IMG/VR virus record: IMGVR_UViG_3300037963_006629
Coordinates: 1 to 20,101 of that record
Direction: 5' to 3' (one strand)
Origin: a virus
DNA length: 20,101 nt
Each line of letters opens with the position of its first letter. Positions within the stretch are counted from its first letter, which is position 1. The translations under genes were made by a program, and so were the position numbers. The notes under the pieces were generated by a model, which was not told the origin of the DNA, did no database searches, and worked only from the letters and a program-made list of their open reading frames with translations. This document shows positions 937 through 11,425 of the stretch, piece by piece.

Positions 937-1536
937 TTATCCAAATGTAAACCATCCAGTAAGAATGTATTTTGGTATATCTCCATGAACAACATTTCCT
1001 CTGTGAGTATGAGTATAAGATGCAGGAAATAAGATTGCGGTATTTTCTTGAGGAGGTATTCTTTCTCTTTGATATAATAATTCAGTTTCTCCTGCAGATT
1101 CTATTGTATTCAAATACATAATATAAGTAAGAACTCTATATGGTTCTGTATATGAGTGTTCAAAATGCCATACATGATATCCTCCTCCGGGATTTGTTTT
1201 CTGCATCTTATACATAGAACAATTTAAATTCACATTCTGTAAGATGGAATATTCTGCAGTATATAAATCAAAGCAATTTTGGAGGGCATTACTAATAATA
1301 TCAAAACTATATGTATCATTAAAAGCTCCAATCTGAGATCTATGATTTGTATAATCTATGAAAGTATACTGATCTTCTTTATTAAGTTTAGATGCTTTTT
1401 CATCATCCTGCCTATTACAAACTCTTCCGTAAGAACAGAGAGTATCAAATTCAGTTATTAAATGTGAACAAAACCCCTGAGGAAAAATGTTTTGGTAAAA
1501 TCCAATATGATTATGATATCTTTCTGTTATTTGCAT
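937..1536 (-). CDS. 2OG-Fe(II) oxygenase-like protein with HxE metal motif
   Basis: This 199-residue protein has a double-stranded beta-helix core typical of 2-oxoglutarate/Fe(II) oxygenases. The putative iron ligands are H124 and E126 in HVWHFE (HxE instead of the usual HxD) and a distal His in FPASYTHTHRGN (H176 or H178). K189-Y190 then fills the usual 2OG-binding Arg/Lys position before the final TGW strand. GETELLY at 149-155 matches the 'GGEl.f' strand. The first 110 residues are family-specific and contain several Cys. The substrate is unknown. The ATG at 1534-1536 has TAGGAA upstream, and the gene overlaps the preceding oxygenase by ten bases, so it is the last of a three-oxygenase run. 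The fold call is fairly sure; activity with Glu in place of Asp is less so. Confidence 0.78.
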   Translation of the reverse strand: MQITERYHNHIGFYQNIFPQGFCSHLITEFDTLCSYGRVCNRQDDEKASKLNKEDQYTFIDYTNHRSQIGAFNDTYSFDIISNALQNCFDLYTAEYSILQNVNLNCSMYKMQKTNPGGGYHVWHFEHSYTEPYRVLTYIMYLNTIESAGETELLYQRERIPPQENTAILFPASYTHTHRGNVVHGDIPKYILTGWFTFG

Positions 1537-2099
1537 GATTTCATTCCTAGATATGGTCTACCGTCATAAATGCTTTCTTTGTATTCACCGTTCTTATCGA
1601 CAAAATGAATAAAAGATTGTAAATACCATTCCTGTGTAAATCGATCTCTCCAATGATATAATTCACTTCCTTTATACAAACAAGCATCTCCAGGATTTAA
1701 TTTTATTTCAGAAATATTTTCTTTGTCTTTTGAAAAATATATTGAATTCAAATCTCCTTCATTTCCCAAAGCAATCGTTGCCGAAATCTCACATTCTGGT
1801 CTATCTTTATGGCATTCCAATTTATCTCCTTTTTTATATAATCTGGTGTAAGAATAAGTTGGAGAAAGTTCAATACCACAAAGTTCACTTATCTTTTTTG
1901 TAGAACACTGCAATACTGTTTCCATTAACGGATCTCCATAAAAAGAATATCCAAACGGTGCCTGGTGATCTGATAATTCTGCTTTGCCTGACATGATACA
2001 CAAATAAAAATATTGCTCAATGAATTTTAAAAAATTTTCTTCAATAAAATTCGGAATTACAAGATATCCATTTTTCTTAAAAAACGTTGAATCTGTCAT
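1527..2099 (-). CDS. 2OG-Fe(II) oxygenase-like protein (HKDR type)
   Basis: This 190-residue protein starts MTDSTFFKKNGYLVIPNF, a phytanoyl-CoA-dioxygenase-like opening. The metal motif is H97-K98-D99 within CHKDRPECEIS; the distal His is probably H149 in ELYHWRD after the 'LNPGDACLY' turn. Y159 and Q161 lie where the co-substrate end is expected, though no clear 2OG-binding Arg was pinned down. I chose the ATG at 2097-2099 because it forms an ATGA overlap with the stop of the preceding oxygenase. The frame opens eight codons earlier at 2123, which would give a longer overlap. The sequence is clearly different from both neighbouring oxygenases, so this is not a recent duplication. The substrate is unknown; it could be a protein residue, a nucleobase or a small molecule. 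Confidence 0.78.
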   Translation of the reverse strand: MTDSTFFKKNGYLVIPNFIEENFLKFIEQYFYLCIMSGKAELSDHQAPFGYSFYGDPLMETVLQCSTKKISELCGIELSPTYSYTRLYKKGDKLECHKDRPECEISATIALGNEGDLNSIYFSKDKENISEIKLNPGDACLYKGSELYHWRDRFTQEWYLQSFIHFVDKNGEYKESIYDGRPYLGMKSCK

Positions 2100-2746
2100 C
2101 TCAATAAACTCCCATGAACCCAAGAAACTAAAGTATATCTTTTACCCGAAGTTACTGGCGTTACTTCGTGAAGAATATGTGAAGGAAAACTAATCACCAA
2201 ACCTCTTTTCTTAGGAATTCTAATTGGATCATTAGAAGTATGCAATAAAATTTCACCTCCCTCATACATGGAAGGATCTGAAAGTTGAATTATAAGAGAC
2301 AATTTTCTTTTTACAGGCAAATTATGAGATTCACCATCTAAATGTTTAGTATAACACCCATTTTCTTTTGAATCATAATATGTAAATTGCATATTTTCAA
2401 TATAATCTAAATCATAATTCCAGTATTTTTCATTGAGATAGTTGATGTGAGCAGTCATCCTTTCATATACCCAAGAAGTCATAGAATTAGGAGTAAGAAA
2501 TGATGTTTTAGATCTTCTTATATGTGATATATCTCGCAAATTTCCAGACACGCTAGCATTTTTCAATCCAAATCTAATTCCAATGTTTATAATGTTCTCC
2601 AATTCATTATTATTGAAAATATTATCGTATTGAGTGTAAATTTGATTTGGTGAAGTTTTTAGATGCCACCTGTCTCCCCACTCCTCAAAAACTGGATCAA
2701 TTAAGGAGTCAAAGGTTTCATCGTAAGAAAAATATTTAGATATCAT
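2096..2746 (-). CDS. Prolyl-4-hydroxylase-like 2OG-Fe(II) oxygenase
   Basis: This 216-residue protein has the full P4H-type signature. IRRSKTSFL (77-84) is the usual substrate-side motif. H135-L136-D137 gives the HxD iron pair, GGEILL (163-168) is the core strand, and FPSHILHEVTPV carries distal H193. K202-R203-Y204 supplies the 2OG-binding Arg, followed by the closing VSWVHG strand. Such enzymes use O2 and 2-oxoglutarate to hydroxylate, most often proline in proteins; the substrate here is not shown by sequence. The start ATG at 2744-2746 overlaps the preceding gene by 11 bases, and the stop overlaps the next gene as ATGA. The position four genes after a fibre rich in Asn-Pro-Gly makes that fibre a candidate substrate (inference). 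Confidence 0.88.
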   Translation of the reverse strand: MISKYFSYDETFDSLIDPVFEEWGDRWHLKTSPNQIYTQYDNIFNNNELENIINIGIRFGLKNASVSGNLRDISHIRRSKTSFLTPNSMTSWVYERMTAHINYLNEKYWNYDLDYIENMQFTYYDSKENGCYTKHLDGESHNLPVKRKLSLIIQLSDPSMYEGGEILLHTSNDPIRIPKKRGLVISFPSHILHEVTPVTSGKRYTLVSWVHGSLLR

Positions 2747-3293
2747 AATTTTGTTGAGTCAATTCATATACACTATTGCAGTTATCAATCATTTCATAAT
2801 ATCTTACTCTTTTATTATAATTGTCTCCTTCAATTTTGTCAAGGTGTTCAAAAATTTCTCGTACACCATAAAAATCAAATGTTCTTACTTTATCACTACA
2901 TTTAATCTTCATTGTTACTGATTCACTAATTAAAGTTTTTAAGAATTTGGAGTAAAGAACTTTTCTTGTTTCTTCATCAATCAATACAAAATAATTTCTA
3001 TATTTAATTTTGGTGATTAATAATTGTCTAAAAAAATTATATACTTCTTTTTTTAACTCACTTTTTATTCTCAAGAAATTATCTTTAGTTGATCTATATT
3101 TTTGAATTTCTTCCGATTTAAAATTAATCCATCCTGTATTCTTATGTTCAGACCATGAGAGATCTCTCAACTGCTCGTCGGATAAATTGTTTAAACCGCA
3201 AATATTACTCCAATCTTTGGGAAGTAATTCAAAATTACCGAGAAATAGTTTTTTGTTAGTGTCAACTCTAATATAGTAATTATCAAACTTCAT
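2736..3293 (-). CDS. Hypothetical protein, possible fibre-associated accessory protein
   Basis: This 185-residue protein is read from the ATG at 3291-3293 (MKFDNYYIRVDTNKKLFLGNF). In-frame ATGs at 3296 and 3305 could add one to four residues, and none has a clear ribosome binding site. No family is recognised with confidence. The N-terminus (YIRVDTNKKLFLGNFELLPKDW) followed by GLNNLSDEQLRDLSW resembles the opening of small proteins encoded beside phage tail fibres, some of which are assembly chaperones. The middle is Lys- and Tyr-rich and mostly helical, ending in IDNCNSVYELTQQNYDI. It overlaps both its upstream (3283) and downstream (2746) neighbours, so it belongs to the same transcript as the fibre and oxygenase genes. 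Confidence 0.7.
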   Translation of the reverse strand: MKFDNYYIRVDTNKKLFLGNFELLPKDWSNICGLNNLSDEQLRDLSWSEHKNTGWINFKSEEIQKYRSTKDNFLRIKSELKKEVYNFFRQLLITKIKYRNYFVLIDEETRKVLYSKFLKTLISESVTMKIKCSDKVRTFDFYGVREIFEHLDKIEGDNYNKRVRYYEMIDNCNSVYELTQQNYDI

Positions 3294-3717
3294 CATCAGA
3301 ATCATCTACTGGATTTAGTTCTTTAAAGATTCCACCTTCTTTTAATTTCTTTAATCTATTTCTTTTATCTGCAGTCAATTGCCATGGAGCAGAACCCATC
3401 CATGTAATTTCATCTGGATTACTCAAATCCCAACTTCTCCAAGAAGAAAAGTCATTTCTAGGTCTTATTGCAACTTCTAATCCGATAGATTCTGATAATG
3501 TTCTGATAAACTCTACGACTTCAACTGGTTGCATTTGATGCCACATACTATTAGAATTTGATCTCATTATAATTTCAGTAATTCCTCCTGTTGCACTTCC
3601 AACACAGATAGAATTTGCACGTTCATCCATCATTTTTTTTGATTTTAATCTTGCCTTCCTATCAAGTAATTCCTCTTCCAACTCAAGTTCTTTTATTTTT
3701 TTAGAAGTATCAGACAT
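3283..3717 (-). CDS. Hypothetical protein with N-terminal coiled coil
   Basis: This 144-residue protein begins MSDTSKKIKELELEEELL. Residues 5-35 form a highly charged Lys/Glu/Leu heptad-like helix, probably a coiled coil. The rest contains SMWHQMQPVEVVEFI, a Trp-rich SSWRSWDL stretch and a charged acidic tail ending DDSDDEV. No enzyme motif or membrane segment is visible. It looks like a small cyanophage virion or assembly protein, but I cannot name the family. The ATG at 3715-3717 is unambiguous, lies 24 bases after the preceding stop and about 21 bases after a late-promoter-like motif at 3739-3746. Confidence 0.72.
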   Translation of the reverse strand: MSDTSKKIKELELEEELLDRKARLKSKKMMDERANSICVGSATGGITEIIMRSNSNSMWHQMQPVEVVEFIRTLSESIGLEVAIRPRNDFSSWRSWDLSNPDEITWMGSAPWQLTADKRNRLKKLKEGGIFKELNPVDDSDDEV

Positions 3718-3738
3718 TTAACAAAAAATAAATTACAT

Positions 3739-3746
3739 AATTTATA
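3739..3746 (-). promoter_or_regulatory. Late-promoter-like motif (TATAAATT)
   Basis: The minus strand reads TATAAATT, seven of eight positions of the T4 late core TATAAATA. It overlaps the stop codon of the gene at 3742-4092 and lies about 21 bases before the next ATG, the usual spacing. The only clear intergenic gap in this part of the cluster occurs here. The AT-rich context makes a chance match possible. Confidence 0.4.
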
Positions 3747-4092
3747 TATCAACTAATTTCCATTGATTATTTTCTGAAAGATATTGATATTTTTTTCCAT
3801 CATTATTAATATCATATAAAATATTTGGGTTAGGACTCCATTCATAATTTTCATTTAGTGAATAAGATTCATCCGGTTTTTCTGGAACAAATGCATTTAT
3901 TTCTTCATCAAAAAAATCTCCAATGTTTGGCATATTATTAAAAATTATTTCCCCATCGATCATTACTAAAAGAACACAATCTGTTCCAACTAAAGATTCA
4001 GGACAAAAATCTTCTGAATTACGTTGAAATCCAATACTAATATTAATAACTTGATTATTTTGATCTAGCAGTGCTGAATATGTTTGTATCAT
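3742..4092 (-). CDS. Small fibre-associated protein (cyanophage 'NxGDxFDEEINAFVPxKP' type)
   Basis: This 116-residue protein begins MIQTYSALLDQNNQVINISIG and carries NIGDFFDEEINAFVPEKPDES followed by a Trp/Asn-rich tail (YEWSPNP, NQWKLVDI). The pattern 'A.LDenn.V..vi' then 'N.G..fd...naFvppkP..sw.l......W' is one I associate with small proteins encoded next to tail fibres in marine cyanophages. Their role is not established; assembly chaperone or minor virion protein are both plausible. It starts inside the stop codon of the glycine-rich fibre gene (ATGA overlap), so translation is coupled to that gene and it may assist its folding (inference). Confidence 0.72.
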   Translation of the reverse strand: MIQTYSALLDQNNQVINISIGFQRNSEDFCPESLVGTDCVLLVMIDGEIIFNNMPNIGDFFDEEINAFVPEKPDESYSLNENYEWSPNPNILYDINNDGKKYQYLSENNQWKLVDI

Positions 4093-5105
4093 TGCGGGAA
4101 CCAGGTAATTGTTACAAAACCTCCGGGAGGGACTGTAATAGGATAATTTACAGATTGATCTATTGATACTGTTGGTATTGTAGTAGGAGTTGCATTTTGA
4201 CCAGCACCTCCATTATTCGAATTACCACCAGAACCGGGATTACCAGGATTACCGGAACTACCACCACCGCCACCAGATCCAAATCCTCCTCCACCTCCTC
4301 CTCCACCACCTGTACCATTACCATTTGAAGGTGTTCCACCACCTCCACCTTCTCCACCATTAGTAGCACCATTTCCACCATTCCCTCCAGCATCAGGTCC
4401 CGGAGCACTCACTCCTCTGTTTCCAGAATTTCCTCCAATATTTCCTCCTCCACCACCATTCCCTGAAGATTCATCATCACCTCCGTTTCCTCCTCCACCA
4501 CCATTTCCACGAGCACCACCACCTCCAGCACTACCAGGGTTTCCAGAATTCCCTGAATTACCTGGATTTCCATTTCCACGACTACCACCATTACCACCAG
4601 GAAAACTAAATCCTAATGCTGAGGATGAACCACCAATATTGCCAGGATTACCAGGATTACCAGCATTACCAGCATTACCACCACCTCCATTATTTGCATT
4701 TCCATTATTACCATTAGACCCAGGATTACCAGATTCACCACCTTGTCCAACATTACTACCGCCTGGTCGAGAACTTCCTCGACCTCCTTCTCCTCCATTT
4801 CCAGGTCCTGGAGCACTTCCTCCAGAACTACCGTCTTGGCCATTTTTTTGGCCATCACTTCCACCACCTCCACCACCTCCACCACCTCCAGAATTCCCTG
4901 AACCACCTGGATTTCCATTTCCACGACTACCACCATTACCACCATTACCAGCATTTCCAGGGTTGCCAGGATTCCCTCGACCACCTCTAGCAGTTAATTG
5001 AACAAAAGTATTTCTTTTAGGGCTAGTCCATGTACCAGGTGCATTGAATGTAATACTATTTCCCTTTACAAATGCAGGTAAATTTTTTCTAGTTATTTTT
5101 GTCAT
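4089..5105 (-). CDS. Glycine-rich tail fibre / adhesin-like protein with collagen-like stretches
   Basis: This 338-residue protein begins TFNAPGTWTSPKRNTFVQL (residues 19-37), the strand pattern of phage 'glycine-rich domain' proteins. Then come about 260 residues of mostly Gly, Asn, Ser and Pro (about 40-300), and a C-terminal cap NYPITVPPGGFVTITWFPQ. The Gly-rich part alternates poly-Gly runs with Gly-Asn-Pro and Gly-Asn-Gly triplets, and contains ten Asn-Pro-Gly motifs. Two structures fit: a polyglycine-II bundle, as in T-even gp38-type receptor-binding tips, or short collagen-like triple helices. It probably sits at a fibre tip and contacts the host (inference from composition and position after the giant fibre gene). 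An internal 57-bp repeat pair shows duplication. The stop overlaps the next ATG. There are no Cys residues. Confidence 0.8.
   Translation of the reverse strand: MTKITRKNLPAFVKGNSITFNAPGTWTSPKRNTFVQLTARGGRGNPGNPGNAGNGGNGGSRGNGNPGGSGNSGGGGGGGGGGSDGQKNGQDGSSGGSAPGPGNGGEGGRGSSRPGGSNVGQGGESGNPGSNGNNGNANNGGGGNAGNAGNPGNPGNIGGSSSALGFSFPGGNGGSRGNGNPGNSGNSGNPGSAGGGGARGNGGGGGNGGDDESSGNGGGGGNIGGNSGNRGVSAPGPDAGGNGGNGATNGGEGGGGGTPSNGNGTGGGGGGGGGFGSGGGGGSSGNPGNPGSGGNSNNGGAGQNATPTTIPTVSIDQSVNYPITVPPGGFVTITWFPQ
4543..4944. repeat. 57-bp direct repeat pair inside the glycine-rich fibre gene
   Basis: Bases 4543-4599 and 4888-4944 match except at two adjacent positions (the two middle bases at 4558-4559 versus 4903-4904). 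On the coding strand both encode GGNGGSRGNGNPG followed by (N/G)SGNSG. Because most of the gene is simple Gly codons, similarity alone is expected, but near-identity over 57 bases including third positions indicates a recent duplication or conversion. Confidence 0.8.
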
Positions 5106-5107
5106 GT

Positions 5108-8100
5108 TTAAGTTTGATAATTATATACTGAAATTAATCCATACCAAGTTGTTCCATTATCAAAAGTATTAAATACCCATAAATCCATTTCATTAGTACC
5201 AGTGCTTCTAGATGGTGTTGTTCCATTAGGGAATTTTATTGTTCCTCCAGATTTTGAATTATTCCATATAATAGTACCATTATTTCTAGATTGATTATCT
5301 ACAAAAACTTGAATAGCACTTGCTTTCCCAGCAACTTGTGTAGGTGCTGCTATATTAATTGTTGTAGATGCCGCAGTTAATCCAACTCTAAAGACAGTTT
5401 CAGTTGTGGGATTTAAAGTAACAGAACTTCCAGATTTATTTGAAAAATTTTCGTCAGCACCGCCTCCGTTAATTGTAAGTTGTCCGTCATTGTTTCTACT
5501 TACAGTAACTCCACCCGAACCAACTAGTCTAACAGAGTCATCAGTTCCACTAGAAGCTTCTAAAAATAGATATGGATTTGTATCGTTTCCTGCGTTACCT
5601 CCATTAGATTGTCTTCTGACTTTCAATTCATAAGTCTTACCAGCATCACTAGTAGCACTAATAGTAGTTCCAGAAATTGATAATCCAGTTCCTATGTCAA
5701 GATATCTTAACCTCTCTCCACTATTGTCATAGAATACAATCCTATCATCATTTGGATCAACAGCATTAATACTACCACCAGAAACTCCTAACACATCATC
5801 AACTGAAGCATCAACACCTAATCCAGCACCGGCAACAGCAGCAACTGTAAAATTAGATCCAGAACCATTTATTGTTATATTAGCTCCTGCAGATAATGTG
5901 ACCGGATCTGTATTTCCTGAACCATCAGTTAAAGTCCAAGTAGCATCACCGACTCCAGATCCCCCGTTATTCGTAGTAAGTGGTAGAGTATAAGTCTTAC
6001 CAGCATCACTAGTAGCACTAATAGTAGTTCCAGAAATTGATAATCCAGTTCCTATGTCAAGATATCTTAACCTCTCTCCACTATTGTCATAGAATACAAT
6101 CCTATCATCATTTGGATCAATAGCAGCAATATTTCCACTCTCAACCTTTAATACATCATCAACTGAAATATCAACACCTAATCCAGCACCGGTAGGAGTA
6201 GAAACAGTTATCTGCGAATCAGAATTTCTACTAACTGTAACGTTACTTCCACCAGTTATTTGAACATCATCATTAGATACTCCATCAGTTAATCTAATTA
6301 CTGGATCAGTATTAGTACCATCAGTTTGCACTGCTTTTAAATCATATCCTATTCCAGGAAGACTTGTTGGATTTACCCATGCAGGTTTAACATTAGCATT
6401 ATCCCATTTTAAAAGGTATCCATCACCACCTGATCCAGGATCTGCTAAGAATGCAGTGGAATCTAACCCATCTTGGTATAAAAGATCTCCTGCAGTACCA
6501 CCAGCAAGATCATCTGCAAGAGCTGCTGTTACTTGACCAATGACAGATTCACGTTTTAGGTCTCTAACATAAAGAGCATTTGTTCCCAATCCAGTCCAAT
6601 TAAGTACAACAACAGAAGCCCAAACTGCTGTAGTAGTTGGTGTATAATCAAAATTAATTGTTTGCCAACTAGTATTTCCTGGTTGATTTTCATATGTTGG
6701 AGAAAGACCTTTTTGTCTAGTATCTTCCTGTACTACAGGATTAGTTGCATTATTTGATACGTGAGTTTTTCCATCTGGAAGTTCTGAATCATATTCATAT
6801 ACTCTAATATAAACACCATTAGTAGAACTTGTATCGGATCTAATTTGGAGAGATAGTTTAAATGTTTGGCCAGTATTTACATCTACCCTGAATGCAGGGA
6901 ATGCCATTCCAATTGTTATGTCACTTCCACTAGTTTGTAGTTTAATGGCAGATTCGTTTGTATCCCAGACTATACTATTATAATCAGCACTACTATATGC
7001 AGGAACACAATCATAAGGATTTCCCTTATATCTAACCATCCTAACAGTATTATCATCTGGATTATATGATAAATCACTATCACCATACACAGTTTGATAA
7101 CTATCATTGGGATTAGTAGAAACAAATGTTATATAATGATTTGTATCAGTAGTTCCTTGCTCTATCTTTAATTGATCTGCATTGTCTGCAGTACCTTGAA
7201 AAGCTCCATTAAATGTAGTAGCATAAACATCTTTCCATTTAAGACTTCCTGAACCCAGATCAATTGTATCATTACTACCCGGAGTTACTGATGCTGGTTT
7301 TGCCGTAAATATTCTGGTTAATTCTTCATTAGCACCACTAACAACATTTTCTTTCAATTCAAATCCCATTTCAGCAGAAGAAGTGCTGTCCACATTTACA
7401 CGTATTCTTCCCGAATTTCCATTTATATCTGGACTACCATTTTGATGATTAAAAGTAATATTTGCATTACCTTCACTATCATTAATGGTTAATGCAACAG
7501 AACCATTACCTTTACCAATCACCACGTATTTTGGATCAAGTTCTGCTCTAAAACCAGTTTCTTGAAGAGCTAAAGTATTAGTAGACGAATTATATTGTAA
7601 TTGATCATCAGCAAATACATCTTCATAACTTCCATCAGCATCATTCTTAATAAATGATAAGTAACGTACTCCGGTAGTATCATCCTGAGATACTTTTACC
7701 TTATCAGATTGTGCAACAGTTGCAGTGGAAAAATTAACACCAACTGTTCCTACTTCATATATCAATCCTTGATTGTTAACCTTAAAGGTTGGAATATTAG
7801 TGGAGTCTCCAATTGTGCTATTACCTGGATTGAATCCAGTTATTGCCTTCAAATTACCATCTAAAACTACGGGAGATGTTCCATTAAATGATACTTCAGA
7901 AGCATTTATCTCACCAATATTATTAGTTCCACCAGTTCCATTAATACTGAAATTTTGAGCATTAGCTAATGCTGTTGCGGTTTCAGAATTTCCAATAAAT
8001 TGACCATTAAATGTTGTTGCAAAAACAGTATTCCACTTTTTCAGAGAGGAACCAATATTAATATTATTGTTTGTTTTTGGTATTAAAGAACTGACAATTT

Positions 8101-11100
8101 CAGAATTTATTATTAAATCATCACCATTATCAGATCCAAGTGTTGTATCACCATTTACTGTTAGAGTATTCGTTATGACAACATCATCAGGCAATCCGAT
8201 TCGAAGAGTTTCATTATTAGGTACTGATGTCTCTATTTCATTTGTTGTTCCAATTATTGCGAAAATCTCACTATCTAAGTCAATAGAACCTGTTCCAGTA
8301 TCACCCGAAAAATCTAAATCTTGTATCGTAATCCGATTATCAACATATGCCTTGATTGATTGTTGAGTGGCAAGTGCGGTGACACTATCAGAAATCATAT
8401 CATCTTCGTCAACTATGGAAGTAATACCAACCGTTGTAATATTAGGTCCTACTTCCAATCTAGTTGTAGATGTAATTCCACTAACAAATAAATCTTGCTC
8501 AATAGAAATATTTTTTACTGTTAAAACATTAGATGAAGCATCATATTTTAATTGATCATCAGCAAATACTTCTTCAAAATTACTATCTGGATCATTCTTA
8601 ATGAATGTTAAATATCTTTGTCCGGCAGTGTCATCCTCATATACAGCAACACTATTAGAACCGGTTGATACTCCTGTTACTGTTCCAACAAAATTATCAG
8701 CATAAACATTTGACCAGAAAAGATTAGCTGCTCCCAAATTATAAGTTGAGTCTGCCGAAGGTACGATATTACTATCTACTCTAGAAGTAATTGTTAAAGT
8801 ATCACTACTTGAGTCACCTATATCAACATTGGCAGCAAATCTCGCAGCACCATTAACATCCAACCAATAATTAGTATCTAAAGTTGCTCCCCGATTGATA
8901 AGAAGATTTCCTTCAGCATTGACTAAGAATTTTGTATTAGTATTATCTGTGTGAGTTTGAGGAGAATCACTAAGTCTAATGTTTAATGCATAGAAATTAT
9001 TACTTCCTTGGTCATCATCCATATCCAACAGGATACCATCATGATCACCATTAGAAGTTTTAATATGGAACATTGCATCAGTTCCAGAACCTCCACCTGG
9101 AAATAATCTTATTTGAGTATCTCCACTACCAAATACATGTGTTGAATTTGAACTTGCAGATAATATTCCTACGTTTAATCTATTAAGAGATGCATTATAT
9201 TTTAATTCATCATCAGCAAACAATTCCTCATAGTTGCTATCAGGATCTCTGCTGATAAAAGTCACATAATGATCTGCGTTCGTATCTCTTTCTGCTACTC
9301 TTATTCTATCAGAACCCGTACTTATTCCACTTAATGTTCCGAAAATGTTATCCGCATAAACGTTGTTCCATCTGTCATTTACAGAACCAAGATCTTTATT
9401 ACTAGTTGGTATTATATTACTATCAATTTTAGCATTAAATACTAAATTATCAGTATCAGCATTTCCAAGTGTGGTATTACCATTTACCGTCAAATTATTT
9501 GCTATGGTAACGTTATTGGGTAATCCAATCGTAAGTTGTTGGTTTGATGCTAATGTTTCTATTTCATTTGCAGTTCCGTTTATTGCAAATGATTGAGTAT
9601 TTAAATCAATAGAACCCGATCCACTGTCACCTGTAAAATCTAAATCTTGAGACGTTATTTGATTATTAACATATGTTTTAATAGACTGTTGAGTAGCAAG
9701 TGCAGTATCACTATTAGAAGACATATCATCTTCGTCAAGTATAGCAGAAATACTGATTATTGGGTTAGTCCCTACTTTTAGAATTTCAGTTGTTGTAATT
9801 CCTTGAACATCTAATGAATCTGTAAATGTTCCTGTATTTGCTGAAAGATTATCAAAAACAATATCATCATTTACATATAAGTCACCACCAACATAGAGAT
9901 CAGTACCAGTCGTTACAATACCAGTAAGTGTAGATTTTCCAGTTACGTTTAATTTATCTCCAATAAAAACATCTTTTTCAATACCAACACCACCATCAAC
10001 AACTAAAGCACCATCATCTTTACTAGTAGAATTAGTAGTTTTGTTTATTAATACACCATCATTAATAACTACAGATGATGATCCGTCAGTGTCGATCGTT
10101 AAATTTCCTGTTCCTGGTTTTGTTTTTACAACACCACCCTCAACTACAACATTACCAAGAGTTGAGACACCGGTCACAATGATATTATCAAAAAATCCTG
10201 TTCCAAAATCAAAGTTAGCTATAGTTCCAACGCCAGTAATATTAAGATCAACAGATTGTATTCCTCGACCAACAGTTAAGTTTTTGGCAATACCGACACC
10301 ACCATCAAATTGAACAGCACCACTATTAACATTACCTAAAACATTATTAGTTAATTTTGTTGACTCTATAAACCCTGATACATTAAGATCATCAAGGTCT
10401 GTCTCACCATCTACATCTAAATTACCATTAGCATCAATATTGCCATTAAATGTAGATACCCCAGAAACTCTTACATCTTGAAGATCTGATAATCTATCTA
10501 CGTCTATTGTTTTAAATTCAGAATCACCAGTTACTGTTAAATTCTGAATGAATACCTCACCTCTAAAGGTAGATATTCCCAATACATCTAATAGTTGACT
10601 TGGTATAGTACTACCAATACCAACACGATTATTATTAAAGTCATAATAAAAATTATCTGCACCGTCTACAAGACCACCACTATTATGAAACTGAATCTGC
10701 CCTATAGTTCCACCAGCACCTGATTGAGTTGTATCTGGTGAAACCCATATAAGACCTCCATTTACACCTTTGACTAATATATATCCTGTATTACCTGGTT
10801 GATTGAGGGAGTCATAAATTGTTCCACTAATTCTAAAGTTACCATCGTTAAGATGAAGTCTTTGAGTTGGATTAGTGGTTCCAATACCAACTAAACCATT
10901 ATCCAAAGACGTTATAACTGTTCCACCAGTTCCTACAGTAATTCTATCTCCAGCAGCAAATAATCCATCATTAAATGTAAATCTCGTATCTGCTGCAAAA
11001 TCATTATTATTTTTAAATAATACTGAATTATTATTTCCAGGTGGTGCTACGGTTATAGTTACAGCAACTCCAGGATTAGATCCTCCTGTTCCATCTCCTA

Positions 11101-11425
11101 TTGCTGTAATTGCACTTCCTTCGAAATTTAATTGTGTCGTACTACTCAATCCACCAACAAGAGTAGTCTCATCAAATACACTAATACTTCCAGGAATGAT
11201 ACCACCTTGATTTGGAATCCAATATCTTTCTCCAGGATACCCTTCAACATTAACAATAATAAATTGATTGCCTGCGGGAACTAAATTTGGATCATATGCC
11301 GATGGTCCAATAATTGGATCACCCAAATCTGGTTCTGCATCTCCTGGAGACAAATATCTATATCTGTCGGATGTTAAACCAGTTTGTGGAGTTTTTTTGT
11401 AACGACCTGATATAAACTTTGGCAT
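5108..11425 (-). CDS. Giant modular tail fibre-like virion protein (2105 residues)
   Basis: The protein starts MPKFISGRYKKTPQTGL and is built of beta-rich modules typical of marine myovirus fibres. Residues about 1-110 form a unique head. About 110-540 are repeated 'VGIGTT.P..LdV.G.s.f' and 'LnVtG.stL' turns. About 540-690 and 985-1135 are two copies of a module around DEDDM..ds.TALATQQSIK and DLDF-G-GSIDL. Four copies of a 'Y..FI..DPdsnyEevFADDqLkYn' block lie near 710, 930, 1250 and 1425. About 1470-1627 is a jelly-roll-like segment resembling carbohydrate-binding domains. Two near-identical NDDRIVFYDNSGERLRYLD blocks lie near 1768 and 1888. The C-terminal domain ends WVFNTFDNGTTWYGLISVYN, a common fibre end. 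No chaperone peptidase is seen. The likely role is host recognition. It starts four bases after the previous stop. Confidence 0.85.
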   Translation of the reverse strand: MPKFISGRYKKTPQTGLTSDRYRYLSPGDAEPDLGDPIIGPSAYDPNLVPAGNQFIIVNVEGYPGERYWIPNQGGIIPGSISVFDETTLVGGLSSTTQLNFEGSAITAIGDGTGGSNPGVAVTITVAPPGNNNSVLFKNNNDFAADTRFTFNDGLFAAGDRITVGTGGTVITSLDNGLVGIGTTNPTQRLHLNDGNFRISGTIYDSLNQPGNTGYILVKGVNGGLIWVSPDTTQSGAGGTIGQIQFHNSGGLVDGADNFYYDFNNNRVGIGSTIPSQLLDVLGISTFRGEVFIQNLTVTGDSEFKTIDVDRLSDLQDVRVSGVSTFNGNIDANGNLDVDGETDLDDLNVSGFIESTKLTNNVLGNVNSGAVQFDGGVGIAKNLTVGRGIQSVDLNITGVGTIANFDFGTGFFDNIIVTGVSTLGNVVVEGGVVKTKPGTGNLTIDTDGSSSVVINDGVLINKTTNSTSKDDGALVVDGGVGIEKDVFIGDKLNVTGKSTLTGIVTTGTDLYVGGDLYVNDDIVFDNLSANTGTFTDSLDVQGITTTEILKVGTNPIISISAILDEDDMSSNSDTALATQQSIKTYVNNQITSQDLDFTGDSGSGSIDLNTQSFAINGTANEIETLASNQQLTIGLPNNVTIANNLTVNGNTTLGNADTDNLVFNAKIDSNIIPTSNKDLGSVNDRWNNVYADNIFGTLSGISTGSDRIRVAERDTNADHYVTFISRDPDSNYEELFADDELKYNASLNRLNVGILSASSNSTHVFGSGDTQIRLFPGGGSGTDAMFHIKTSNGDHDGILLDMDDDQGSNNFYALNIRLSDSPQTHTDNTNTKFLVNAEGNLLINRGATLDTNYWLDVNGAARFAANVDIGDSSSDTLTITSRVDSNIVPSADSTYNLGAANLFWSNVYADNFVGTVTGVSTGSNSVAVYEDDTAGQRYLTFIKNDPDSNFEEVFADDQLKYDASSNVLTVKNISIEQDLFVSGITSTTRLEVGPNITTVGITSIVDEDDMISDSVTALATQQSIKAYVDNRITIQDLDFSGDTGTGSIDLDSEIFAIIGTTNEIETSVPNNETLRIGLPDDVVITNTLTVNGDTTLGSDNGDDLIINSEIVSSLIPKTNNNINIGSSLKKWNTVFATTFNGQFIGNSETATALANAQNFSINGTGGTNNIGEINASEVSFNGTSPVVLDGNLKAITGFNPGNSTIGDSTNIPTFKVNNQGLIYEVGTVGVNFSTATVAQSDKVKVSQDDTTGVRYLSFIKNDADGSYEDVFADDQLQYNSSTNTLALQETGFRAELDPKYVVIGKGNGSVALTINDSEGNANITFNHQNGSPDINGNSGRIRVNVDSTSSAEMGFELKENVVSGANEELTRIFTAKPASVTPGSNDTIDLGSGSLKWKDVYATTFNGAFQGTADNADQLKIEQGTTDTNHYITFVSTNPNDSYQTVYGDSDLSYNPDDNTVRMVRYKGNPYDCVPAYSSADYNSIVWDTNESAIKLQTSGSDITIGMAFPAFRVDVNTGQTFKLSLQIRSDTSSTNGVYIRVYEYDSELPDGKTHVSNNATNPVVQEDTRQKGLSPTYENQPGNTSWQTINFDYTPTTTAVWASVVVLNWTGLGTNALYVRDLKRESVIGQVTAALADDLAGGTAGDLLYQDGLDSTAFLADPGSGGDGYLLKWDNANVKPAWVNPTSLPGIGYDLKAVQTDGTNTDPVIRLTDGVSNDDVQITGGSNVTVSRNSDSQITVSTPTGAGLGVDISVDDVLKVESGNIAAIDPNDDRIVFYDNSGERLRYLDIGTGLSISGTTISATSDAGKTYTLPLTTNNGGSGVGDATWTLTDGSGNTDPVTLSAGANITINGSGSNFTVAAVAGAGLGVDASVDDVLGVSGGSINAVDPNDDRIVFYDNSGERLRYLDIGTGLSISGTTISATSDAGKTYELKVRRQSNGGNAGNDTNPYLFLEASSGTDDSVRLVGSGGVTVSRNNDGQLTINGGGADENFSNKSGSSVTLNPTTETVFRVGLTAASTTINIAAPTQVAGKASAIQVFVDNQSRNNGTIIWNNSKSGGTIKFPNGTTPSRSTGTNEMDLWVFNTFDNGTTWYGLISVYNYQT
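5630..5760. repeat. Perfect 131-bp direct repeat, copy 1
   Basis: Bases 5630-5760 are identical to 5990-6120, an offset of exactly 360 bases (120 codons), so the reading frame is kept. The block encodes DDRIVFYDNSGERLRYLD through SATSDAGKTY in the giant fibre. Similarity continues patchily beyond 5760 into the VD.DVL and GAGLGVD segments. No mismatch over 131 bases, including wobble positions, points to recent duplication or gene conversion. Confidence 0.95.
5990..6120. repeat. Perfect 131-bp direct repeat, copy 2
   Basis: This is the second copy of the block at 5630-5760, with divergence starting abruptly at 5989 and 6121. The neighbouring sequence codes for related but diverged peptide (AAIDPNDD here versus NAVDPNDD in copy 1). 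The whole 360-base module was therefore probably duplicated earlier, and only this core was homogenised recently. Confidence 0.95.

Follow-up and report, generated by a model that had tools for sequence, protein, structure and literature searches.

A recurrent linkage between 2OG-Fe(II) oxygenases and a glycine-rich fibre-tip protein in aquatic phages points to possible modification of the host-binding fibre

2OG-Fe(II) oxygenases are among the most often repeated unexplained genes of marine phages and are often filed as auxiliary metabolic genes. The clusters of such genes in Kyanoviridae have been catalogued in this way, with the function given as DNA repair or as cryptic (PMC9146016, PMC9301287); the DNA-repair guess for phage 2OG oxygenases is repeated in PMC9146016, while viral use of prolyl 4-hydroxylase (P4H) 'remains cryptic' according to PMC9301287. 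In the account of Eriksson et al. (1999) given in the latter paper, the P4H of Paramecium bursaria chlorella virus-1 (PBCV-1) is presented together with viral peptide substrates. On the side of the adhesins, gp38 of S16/T2/PP01-type phages is a Gly-rich tip protein whose gene follows the distal fibre gene and whose small beta domain is interrupted by Gly-rich runs (PMC6851490, PMC12892980), an arrangement similar to the one considered here. No description of a link between phage hydroxylases and Gly-rich fibre adhesins was found in the open-licence literature, although such an absence is weak evidence.

The window, that is, the whole stretch of 20,101 bases that was analysed, was checked, and all ORFs were found at the positions given by an earlier sequence-only reading of this DNA. 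The Gly-rich fibre-tip gene, u116, u144, u189 and three oxygenase genes (ox1, ox2 and ox3) form a run on one strand, mostly in overlapping frames. The features of the region are as follows:

5108..11425, minus strand: long tail fibre protein of 2105 aa, encoded immediately upstream of the adhesin gene and the proposed carrier of the adhesin.
4089..5105, minus strand: Gly-rich putative tail-fibre tip adhesin of 338 aa, with a modelled beta base and two Gly-rich insertions carrying 10 NPG motifs.
3742..4092, minus strand: u116, a small protein corresponding to the C-terminal domain of phrog_7759, in the fibre position directly after the adhesin.
3283..3717, minus strand: u144, a conserved module gene present in 54 loci.
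2736..3305, minus strand: u189, a conserved module gene; its counterpart in one surveyed locus (L008) matches phrog_10508 (tail fiber).
2814..2842, minus strand: perfect sigma70 consensus TTGACA-17-TATAAT, 68 bp before ox1 and inside u189.
2096..2746, minus strand: ox1, 2OG-Fe(II) oxygenase, PKHD/P4H-like, PF13640; H135xD137...H193...R203.
1527..2123, minus strand: ox2, 2OG-Fe(II) oxygenase, phrog_2954; H105xD107...H157; the ATG at 2099 is the more likely start.
937..1536, minus strand: ox3, 2OG-Fe(II) oxygenase, PF13640; H124xE126...H178...K189.

The genes had been described as overlapping, which holds for most junctions (4–28 nt): the overlap is 4 nt between the Gly-rich gene and u116, 23 nt between u144 and u189, 11 nt between u189 and ox1, 4 nt between ox1 and ox2 when counted from the ox2 ATG (28 nt from the annotated TTG), and 10 nt between ox2 and ox3, while u116 and u144 are separated by a gap of about 24 nt. 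The late-type promoters that had been proposed were not confirmed, since the canonical T4 late motif TATAAATA is absent from the whole window and the perfect sigma70 consensus is present instead. The latter was not seen before ox1 in five relatives and is therefore not taken as evidence for separate expression; dedicated late expression of the module is not supported. A neighbouring tail protein has homologues at 28–41% identity in T4-like Synechococcus and Prochlorococcus phages of the Kyanoviridae type, as well as in records from marine single cells; a scan with u189 as the query revealed no relatives.

The 338-aa protein comprises 131 G, 51 N and 26 P, and X-Pro-Gly occurs in it 17 times in total. 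All ten Asn-Pro-Gly motifs previously noticed were located (residues 45, 48, 65, 127, 150, 153, 180, 189, 286 and 289), compared with a mean of 1.38 and a maximum of 6 in 5000 shuffles of the Gly-rich core. In an AlphaFold model, confident beta strands at residues 16–40, 161–168 and 308–335 make up a small base, while the two Gly-rich insertions (about residues 41–160 and 169–307) are of low confidence. NPG pairs lie near all four ends of the insertions, and near the beta base (up to about 22 residues away) the PG density is 7.5%, twice the 3.7% seen mid-insertion. The base-plus-insertions architecture, as modelled, resembles that of gp38 polyglycine adhesins. Since a Foldseek search with the model revealed no match at E≤0.001, the solved gp38 included, we describe the protein as one that would work like gp38 rather than as gp38 itself. 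A collagen triple helix was rejected: the longest Gly-X-Y runs have 11 triplets, with much Gly at X and Y. Pfam Collagen is matched by 1 of 22 homologues of the protein. The Gly-rich protein gave no tblastn hits, probably owing to low-complexity filtering, and DNA patterns were therefore used for searches.

The enzymes encoded downstream belong to the 2OG-Fe(II) oxygenase superfamily, carrying the HxD/E...H iron triad in a double-stranded beta-helix, and fall into three separate families, in agreement with their earlier description as three different oxygenases. Both ox1 and ox3 pass the PF13640 cut-off of 27 bits (53.6 and 45.3 bits, respectively), this Pfam family is also matched by all members of the ox1 and ox3 alignments, and the 2OG-binding Arg/Lys after the distal His is R203 in ox1 and K189 in ox3. 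The full P4H signature attributed to ox1 turned out to be only the generic 2OG triad H135-x-D137...H193...R203; its closest solved relatives are PKHD-type hydroxylases (3dkq, PiuC), with P4Hs next, and its family profile gives 3e-16 for PKHD/PiuC versus 6e-10 for P4H. In ox3, HxE takes the place of HxD, which is unusual, and the family profile matches 3itq (Bacillus) at 3e-13, 5c5t at 2e-8 and, weakly, lysyl hydroxylase LH3. The entry 5c5t, which we take to be the PBCV-1 prolyl 4-hydroxylase, is among the solved relatives of both families. Judged by its profile, ox3 appears more P4H-like than ox1 and closest to bacterial and PBCV-1 prolyl 4-hydroxylases.

The third enzyme, ox2, matches PF13532 below the cut-off (24.2 vs 31.2 bits), and its family profile yielded no significant match among solved structures. 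Its assignment as a 2OG oxygenase is based on the HxD and distal His found in all family members and on the AlphaFold model (mean pLDDT 89.8), which in Foldseek resembles 2OG oxygenases of known structure, with TM-scores of 0.70–0.71 for PPHD/PHD2 and 0.58 for AlkB. The canonical Arg/Lys 10–14 residues past the distal His is lacking, and R94, R108, R159 and H173 are invariant instead. The labels 'ferrochelatase' (phrog_2954) and 'DNA endonuclease' carried by relatives were rejected as mis-annotation in view of the HxD/distal His and the model matches to 2OG oxygenases.

The survey of P4H genes and NPG-rich fibres proposed by the sequence-only reading revealed their co-occurrence, with a dose-response on Pro-Gly density. 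Viral contigs were fetched via Gly-rich DNA patterns alone, and an oxygenase gene was scored within 6 kb in non-redundant, flanked loci; it was nearby in 1/13 loci with fewer than 1 PG per 100 aa, 7/12 with 1–2, and 20/23 with at least 2 (Fisher p=4e-6 for the densest versus the sparsest class). After removal of NPG-selected loci the difference (2/3 vs 1/11) was not significant (Fisher p=0.09). Among loci fetched by the GNPGNPG DNA pattern, 52 of 70 Gly-rich ORFs had a 2OG gene on the same strand no more than 5 kb away, whereas any 2OG gene was present in 6 of 50 loci with chance matches (no Gly-rich ORF with the motif). In a Pro-blind poly-Gly set, the median Pro content was 6.1% beside 2OG genes versus 3.1% otherwise (p=6e-5). 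A later scan with HMMs already built found an oxygenase in 17/21 cases, each of the four misses being truncated on one side where the contig ends. In bacteria, none of 101 in-frame GNPGNPGNPG ORFs (24 of them Gly-rich) had an oxygenase neighbour.

The reverse search, from the enzymes, found a Gly-rich ORF beside the cluster in 45/79 and 46/73 loci versus 17/176 in the background. A single-sequence viral scan with ox1 had returned only four relatives, and motif patterns and profile scans were therefore used. In enzyme-selected loci Pro accounts for 9.5% of X and 11.7% of Y positions, with no bias to the position before Gly, while in the GNPG type (2.2% vs 25.7%) it is biased to that position; a general Pro bias before Gly was thus discarded as a signature of the module. 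Altogether, 39 arrangements were recorded across 103 loci, partly an effect of truncation, and the members remain together; ox3, for example, lies behind ox2 in the window and before the adhesin in L007, L008 and L037. Oxygenases independent of such fibres, named beforehand as evidence against the proposal, do occur: in about 40% of the well-flanked loci of the ox1 family no Gly-rich ORF lies close by, and lone ox1 relatives are located between uvsY and uvsW in S-ShM2 and near primase in CRP-810; most loci are nevertheless fibre-linked.

Among isolates, a Gly-rich ORF lies beside the 2OG cluster in S-CAM8, S-SSM5, HTVC008M, HTVC023P, HTVC033P, Mosig, S-PM2 and Syn1. The carriers are diverse and include Kyanoviridae myoviruses as well as the pelagiphages HTVC023P and HTVC033P (about 50–60 kb); cultured carriers comprise the Synechococcus phages S-SSM5 (gp40) and S-CAM8 and the pelagiphages HTVC008M (gp065) and Mosig (gp62). 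A Nol-like carbamoyltransferase sits between the adhesin and the oxygenases in S-CAM8 and S-SSM5, and in S-PM2 and Syn1 the oxygenases adjoin Gly-rich proteins with few PG.

The recurrence of the Gly-rich/oxygenase pairing in many gene orders across aquatic phages suggests that these phages modify their own host-binding fibre. We assign a probability of about 0.58 to the reading that the locus is a self-modification module, whose oxygenases hydroxylate residues of the phage's own Gly-rich fibre tip; the earlier interpretation to this effect is partly supported. As regards fold, substrate, target residue and purpose, we infer the following. The 338-aa protein would form the tip with which the long tail fibre binds its receptor and would follow the gp38 adhesin plan, its Gly-rich chains extending from the small beta base probably as a polyglycine-II/polyproline-II (PGII) helix bundle, with loops that would contact the host. 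The three oxygenases would hydroxylate helix residues before assembly; the likeliest target would be the Pro of X-Pro-Gly (GNPG), a motif most frequent at the stems, and the preceding Asn could be a second one. By analogy with hydroxyproline in collagen, the modification would be expected to make the bundle stiffer and more stable, or to furnish the surface of the adhesin with new hydrogen-bonding groups. The motif can also be purely structural, since S16 gp38 has NPG with no adjoining oxygenase.

An unlikely but still serious alternative is a host-range cassette, in which the oxygenases act on a host protein or on something at the host surface (LPS, an outer-membrane protein, nutrient uptake) and move together with the adhesin since both serve the phage–host interface. 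Tail-fibre regions are hot spots of exchange, the PKHD-type relatives closest to ox1 include PiuC, a pseudomonal iron-uptake factor, and the intervening carbamoyltransferase of S-CAM8 and S-SSM5 would also fit; however, such a cassette predicts neither the rise in oxygenase presence with adhesin Pro-Gly density nor the P4H-like family profile of ox3. The same covariation with Pro-Gly density of the Gly-rich protein makes it improbable that the enzymes act on another virion or fibre component, such as the 2105-aa fibre or a chaperone (e.g., u116 or u144), despite the retention of u116, u144 and u189 in the module and the PG-poor neighbours of the fibre-linked oxygenases in S-PM2 and Syn1. Slightly more doubtful still is linkage by descent, in which the genes would all belong to a single tail locus common among phages, with high Pro-Gly as a lineage trait that has no functional tie to the enzymes: on the ox1 tree, Pro-Gly-rich neighbours do cluster (17 changes vs 42 expected by shuffling), but this still leaves at least 17 state changes, 39 gene orders, and carriers as different as Kyanoviridae myoviruses and pelagiphages of about 50–60 kb. 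Finally, it is very improbable that these are auxiliary enzymes of the usual kind, or enzymes acting on nucleic acids (DNA repair, oxidation of nucleotides or bases), lying near fibres by chance, as proposed for DNA repair from uvsX/uvsY/uvsW neighbours (PMC9146016) and as the positions of the S-ShM2 and CRP-810 relatives and the presence of AlkB among the best ox2 structure matches might suggest, since members of the module families mostly lie beside fibres and have changed position along with the adhesin gene, and the ox2 model is nearer to PPHD/PHD2 than to AlkB.

Beyond this locus, we see even chances that a mobile, self-contained module is widespread among aquatic phages and hydroxylates Pro, and perhaps Asn, of their own polyglycine-type adhesin, a type of modification not described before, and that this is the main role of many unexplained marine-phage 2OG oxygenases. 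The linkage supplies a concrete substrate hypothesis for these enzymes that is testable in cultured phages. Should self-modification prove true, enzymatic hydroxylation would tune phage adhesins as it does collagen, and the recognition of hosts would hinge on the infected cell's oxygen, iron and 2-oxoglutarate.

Compared with known systems, the module is similar to PBCV-1 in having a virus-encoded 2OG prolyl 4-hydroxylase-like enzyme, the PBCV-1 peptide substrates being found in its own proteins; PBCV-1, however, is a eukaryotic large DNA virus with one enzyme instead of three families, and with neither a tail-fibre adhesin module nor a polyglycine-II architecture. The solved polyglycine adhesin, S16 gp38, contains five PG, two of them NPG, far fewer than the window adhesin, its gene has no oxygenase beside it, and there is no detectable fold match between the two proteins. 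The Bacillus collagen-type P4Hs (3itq/5hv0), the best matches of the ox3 family profile (3e-13), are cellular enzymes, and ox3 differs from them in having HxE rather than HxD. PPHD, the EF-Tu prolyl hydroxylase (4iw3), which ranks with the best structural matches to ox2 (TM 0.71), is likewise cellular, and ox2 has no Arg/Lys at the position that usually binds 2OG. The PKHD-type hydroxylases (Sbal_3634 3dkq, PiuC) are the best sequence matches of ox1, whose catalytic half (residues 124–212) aligns to 3dkq, while the context of ox1 is a fibre module. The Kyanoviridae 2OG-Fe(II) oxygenase clusters (T4-GC 412/615/240 etc.) comprise the same enzyme families, with several members per genome, often located behind tail fibres.

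On the minus strand of the window, seven genes, mostly overlapping, run head to tail from 5105 down to 937, followed by two tRNA genes of the phage:

4089-5105, minus: Gly-rich protein (putative tail-fibre tip), first gene
3742-4092, minus: u116, gene for a small protein, second
3283-3717, minus: u144, small conserved gene, third
2736-3305, minus: u189, conserved gene, fourth
2096-2746, minus: ox1, oxygenase, fifth
1527-2123, minus: ox2, oxygenase, sixth (likelier start, the ATG at 2099)
937-1536, minus: ox3, oxygenase, seventh
319-392 and 395-484, minus: tRNA-Met(CAT) and tRNA-Ile(TAT)

A tail fibre protein of 2105 aa is encoded immediately upstream of the Gly-rich gene, with further tail and baseplate genes beyond; the neighbouring tail protein shows 28–37% identity to relatives in T4-like phages of Synechococcus and Prochlorococcus, and 41% to a relative in a marine single-cell record. 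The perfect sigma70 consensus TTGACA-17-TATAAT occurs twice in the window, at 2842-2814(-) and 910-882(-) (0.055 expected); the former lies 68 bp upstream of ox1 and is absent at the equivalent place in five relatives. Next to the tRNA genes, a 57-aa ORF (495-668, minus) matches Phd/YefM-like antitoxins below the Pfam cut-off, and no toxin partner was recognised for it.

All three enzymes are certainly 2OG-Fe(II) oxygenases, as the sequence-only reading had proposed, on the basis of their triads, Pfam membership (ox1 and ox3) and the AlphaFold fold (ox2). The ox1 motif H135xD137...H193...R203 is invariant across the alignment; the "full P4H signature" formerly ascribed to it is a generic triad only, and ox1 is a member of PF13640 whose nearest solved relatives are PKHD-type hydroxylases (3dkq, PiuC), followed by prolyl 4-hydroxylases (P4Hs). 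The ox2 motif H105xD107...H157 is likewise invariant, and the AlphaFold model (pLDDT 89.8) has a 2OG oxygenase fold, with matches including PPHD (4iw3; TM-score 0.71) and PHD2 (0.70). The conserved triad and this fold led us to reject the "ferrochelatase" label of the ox2 family (phrog_2954; RefSeq, Kyanoviridae); "DNA endonuclease (V)" PHROG labels similarly overlap the ox3 family. ox3 carries H124xE126...H178...K189; of the 63 family members, 43 have Glu at the second ligand position and 19 have Asp. Its family profile is nearest to the Bacillus P4Hs 3itq and 5hv0, then to the P4H entries 6iuq and 5c5t (the latter the PBCV-1 enzyme) and, weakly, to lysyl hydroxylase LH3.

The Gly-rich protein contains 131 Gly, 51 Asn and 26 Pro in 338 aa, and the ten NPG motifs noticed earlier were all counted, against 1.4 expected by shuffling. 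An AlphaFold run with 22 homologues in the input alignment gave high confidence only for strands 16-40, 161-168 and 308-335, which we interpret as a base bearing two long Gly-rich insertions. Close to this putative base lie the NPG pairs 45/48, 150/153, 180/189 and 286/289, each at one of the insertion ends or near it. Across the family, PG density close to the base (up to about 22 residues away) is twice that in the middle of the insertions (7.5% versus 3.7%); given the relatedness of the rows, the p-value for this difference is not an independent one. A collagen triple helix was rejected, the Gly-X-Y runs falling short of the length it needs and containing too much Gly.

Viral contigs were retrieved by DNA patterns blind to the enzymes, coding for GNPGNPG or, as controls, for GNAGNAG and poly-Gly. 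In the GNPGNPG set, 52 of 70 Gly-rich ORFs had a same-strand oxygenase within 5 kb, and any 2OG gene was found in 6/50 loci without a Gly-rich ORF bearing the motif. Among non-redundant loci with at least 3 kb downstream and at least 1.5 kb upstream, oxygenase presence climbed with Pro-Gly density from 1/13 through 7/12 to 20/23, bearing out the suggested co-occurrence of P4H-type genes and NPG-rich fibres. Without the NPG-selected set, the flanked test gave 2/3 versus 1/11 (p = 0.09, few loci); in the poly-Gly set alone, Pro was twice as frequent beside oxygenases. High-density loci lacking an oxygenase were mostly contig ends, the flanked exceptions being L046, L051 and L265. These loci also supplied part of the training set for the oxygenase HMMs, but the members pass Pfam. 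A later scan with unchanged HMMs found an oxygenase in 17/21; the other four loci were truncated at one end. In bacterial genomes with GNPGNPGNPG, 0 of 101 in-frame ORFs had an oxygenase neighbour.

Surveyed from the enzyme side, a Gly-rich ORF lay near the cluster in 45/79 loci retrieved via the ox2 family and 46/73 via ox1, compared with 17/176 background loci. Occurrence of the oxygenases independently of such fibres, named beforehand as evidence against the proposal, holds for 10 of 26 well-flanked ox1-family loci and for S-ShM2 and CRP-810, whose ox1 relatives lie among DNA genes. On a quick ox1 tree of 126 rows, with modest support, Pro-Gly-rich neighbourhoods are clustered (17 changes versus 42 expected by shuffling), one 35-row group containing 34 such loci. 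Across 103 loci the module members remain linked in 39 different gene orders, a number that includes some truncations; examples are given below.

Gene orders of the module
Window: Gly-u116-u144-u189-ox1-ox2-ox3
L007, L008, L037: ox3-Gly-u116-u144-u189-ox1-ox2
L029: Gly-ox3-ox1

Among isolates, S-CAM8, S-SSM5, HTVC008M, HTVC023P, HTVC033P, Mosig, S-PM2 and Syn1 carry a Gly-rich ORF beside an oxygenase cluster. The adhesin is present in 66/70 loci bearing u116, u144 or u189; u144 (window 3283-3717; 54 loci in all) nearly always adjoins it and is a candidate assembly factor or chaperone. In S-CAM8 and S-SSM5, the Gly-rich ORF is separated from the oxygenases by a Nol-like carbamoyltransferase on the opposite strand (L002 12223-13833, L003 10219-11883), and HTVC008M (L354) has a tryptophan halogenase (PrnA) gene, I899_gp079, near its 2OG cluster. 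Two further loci, L144 and L171, have fibre-like ORFs with Gly-rich repeats and few Pro-Gly beside ox3-family oxygenases, with GHQ-type repeats in one L144 ORF and in L231; in such ORFs other residues might be the targets.

From the observed genes, enzyme class, linkage and covariation we infer a substrate, a target residue and a purpose. Judging by gene overlap, adhesin and oxygenases would most likely be made from one transcript region, and the enzymes would hydroxylate the Gly-rich chains, the simplest target being Pro in GNPG at the bundle stems. In collagen, such hydroxylation stabilises the helix; by analogy, it could here rigidify the fibre tip or decorate its surface. With enzymes from three different families, the phage could be targeting as many residues or contexts, such as Pro before Gly or Asn before Pro. 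Against this stand the NPG motifs of S16 gp38, which has no adjoining oxygenase, the few PG in some oxygenase-linked Gly-rich proteins, and the confinement of the preference for Pro before Gly to the GNPG type.

In gp38 of phages S16 and PP01, a beta domain bears Gly-rich chains folded as polyglycine-II helices (PMC6851490, PMC12892980). The general plan appears to be alike, but the model of the window's Gly-rich protein has no significant structural match; therefore, we propose that it works like gp38, not that it is gp38. Phage P4H-type genes are described as abundant and their use as "cryptic" (PMC9301287), and the multiple 2OG oxygenases of cyanophages have been ascribed to DNA repair (PMC9146016); our search of open-licence literature found no report tying oxygenases to Gly-rich fibres. 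A known case is PBCV-1, whose prolyl 4-hydroxylase has peptides of the virus itself as substrates (Eriksson 1999, cited in PMC9301287). In the window, virus-encoded hydroxylases would likewise serve a viral structural protein, here within a phage adhesin module.
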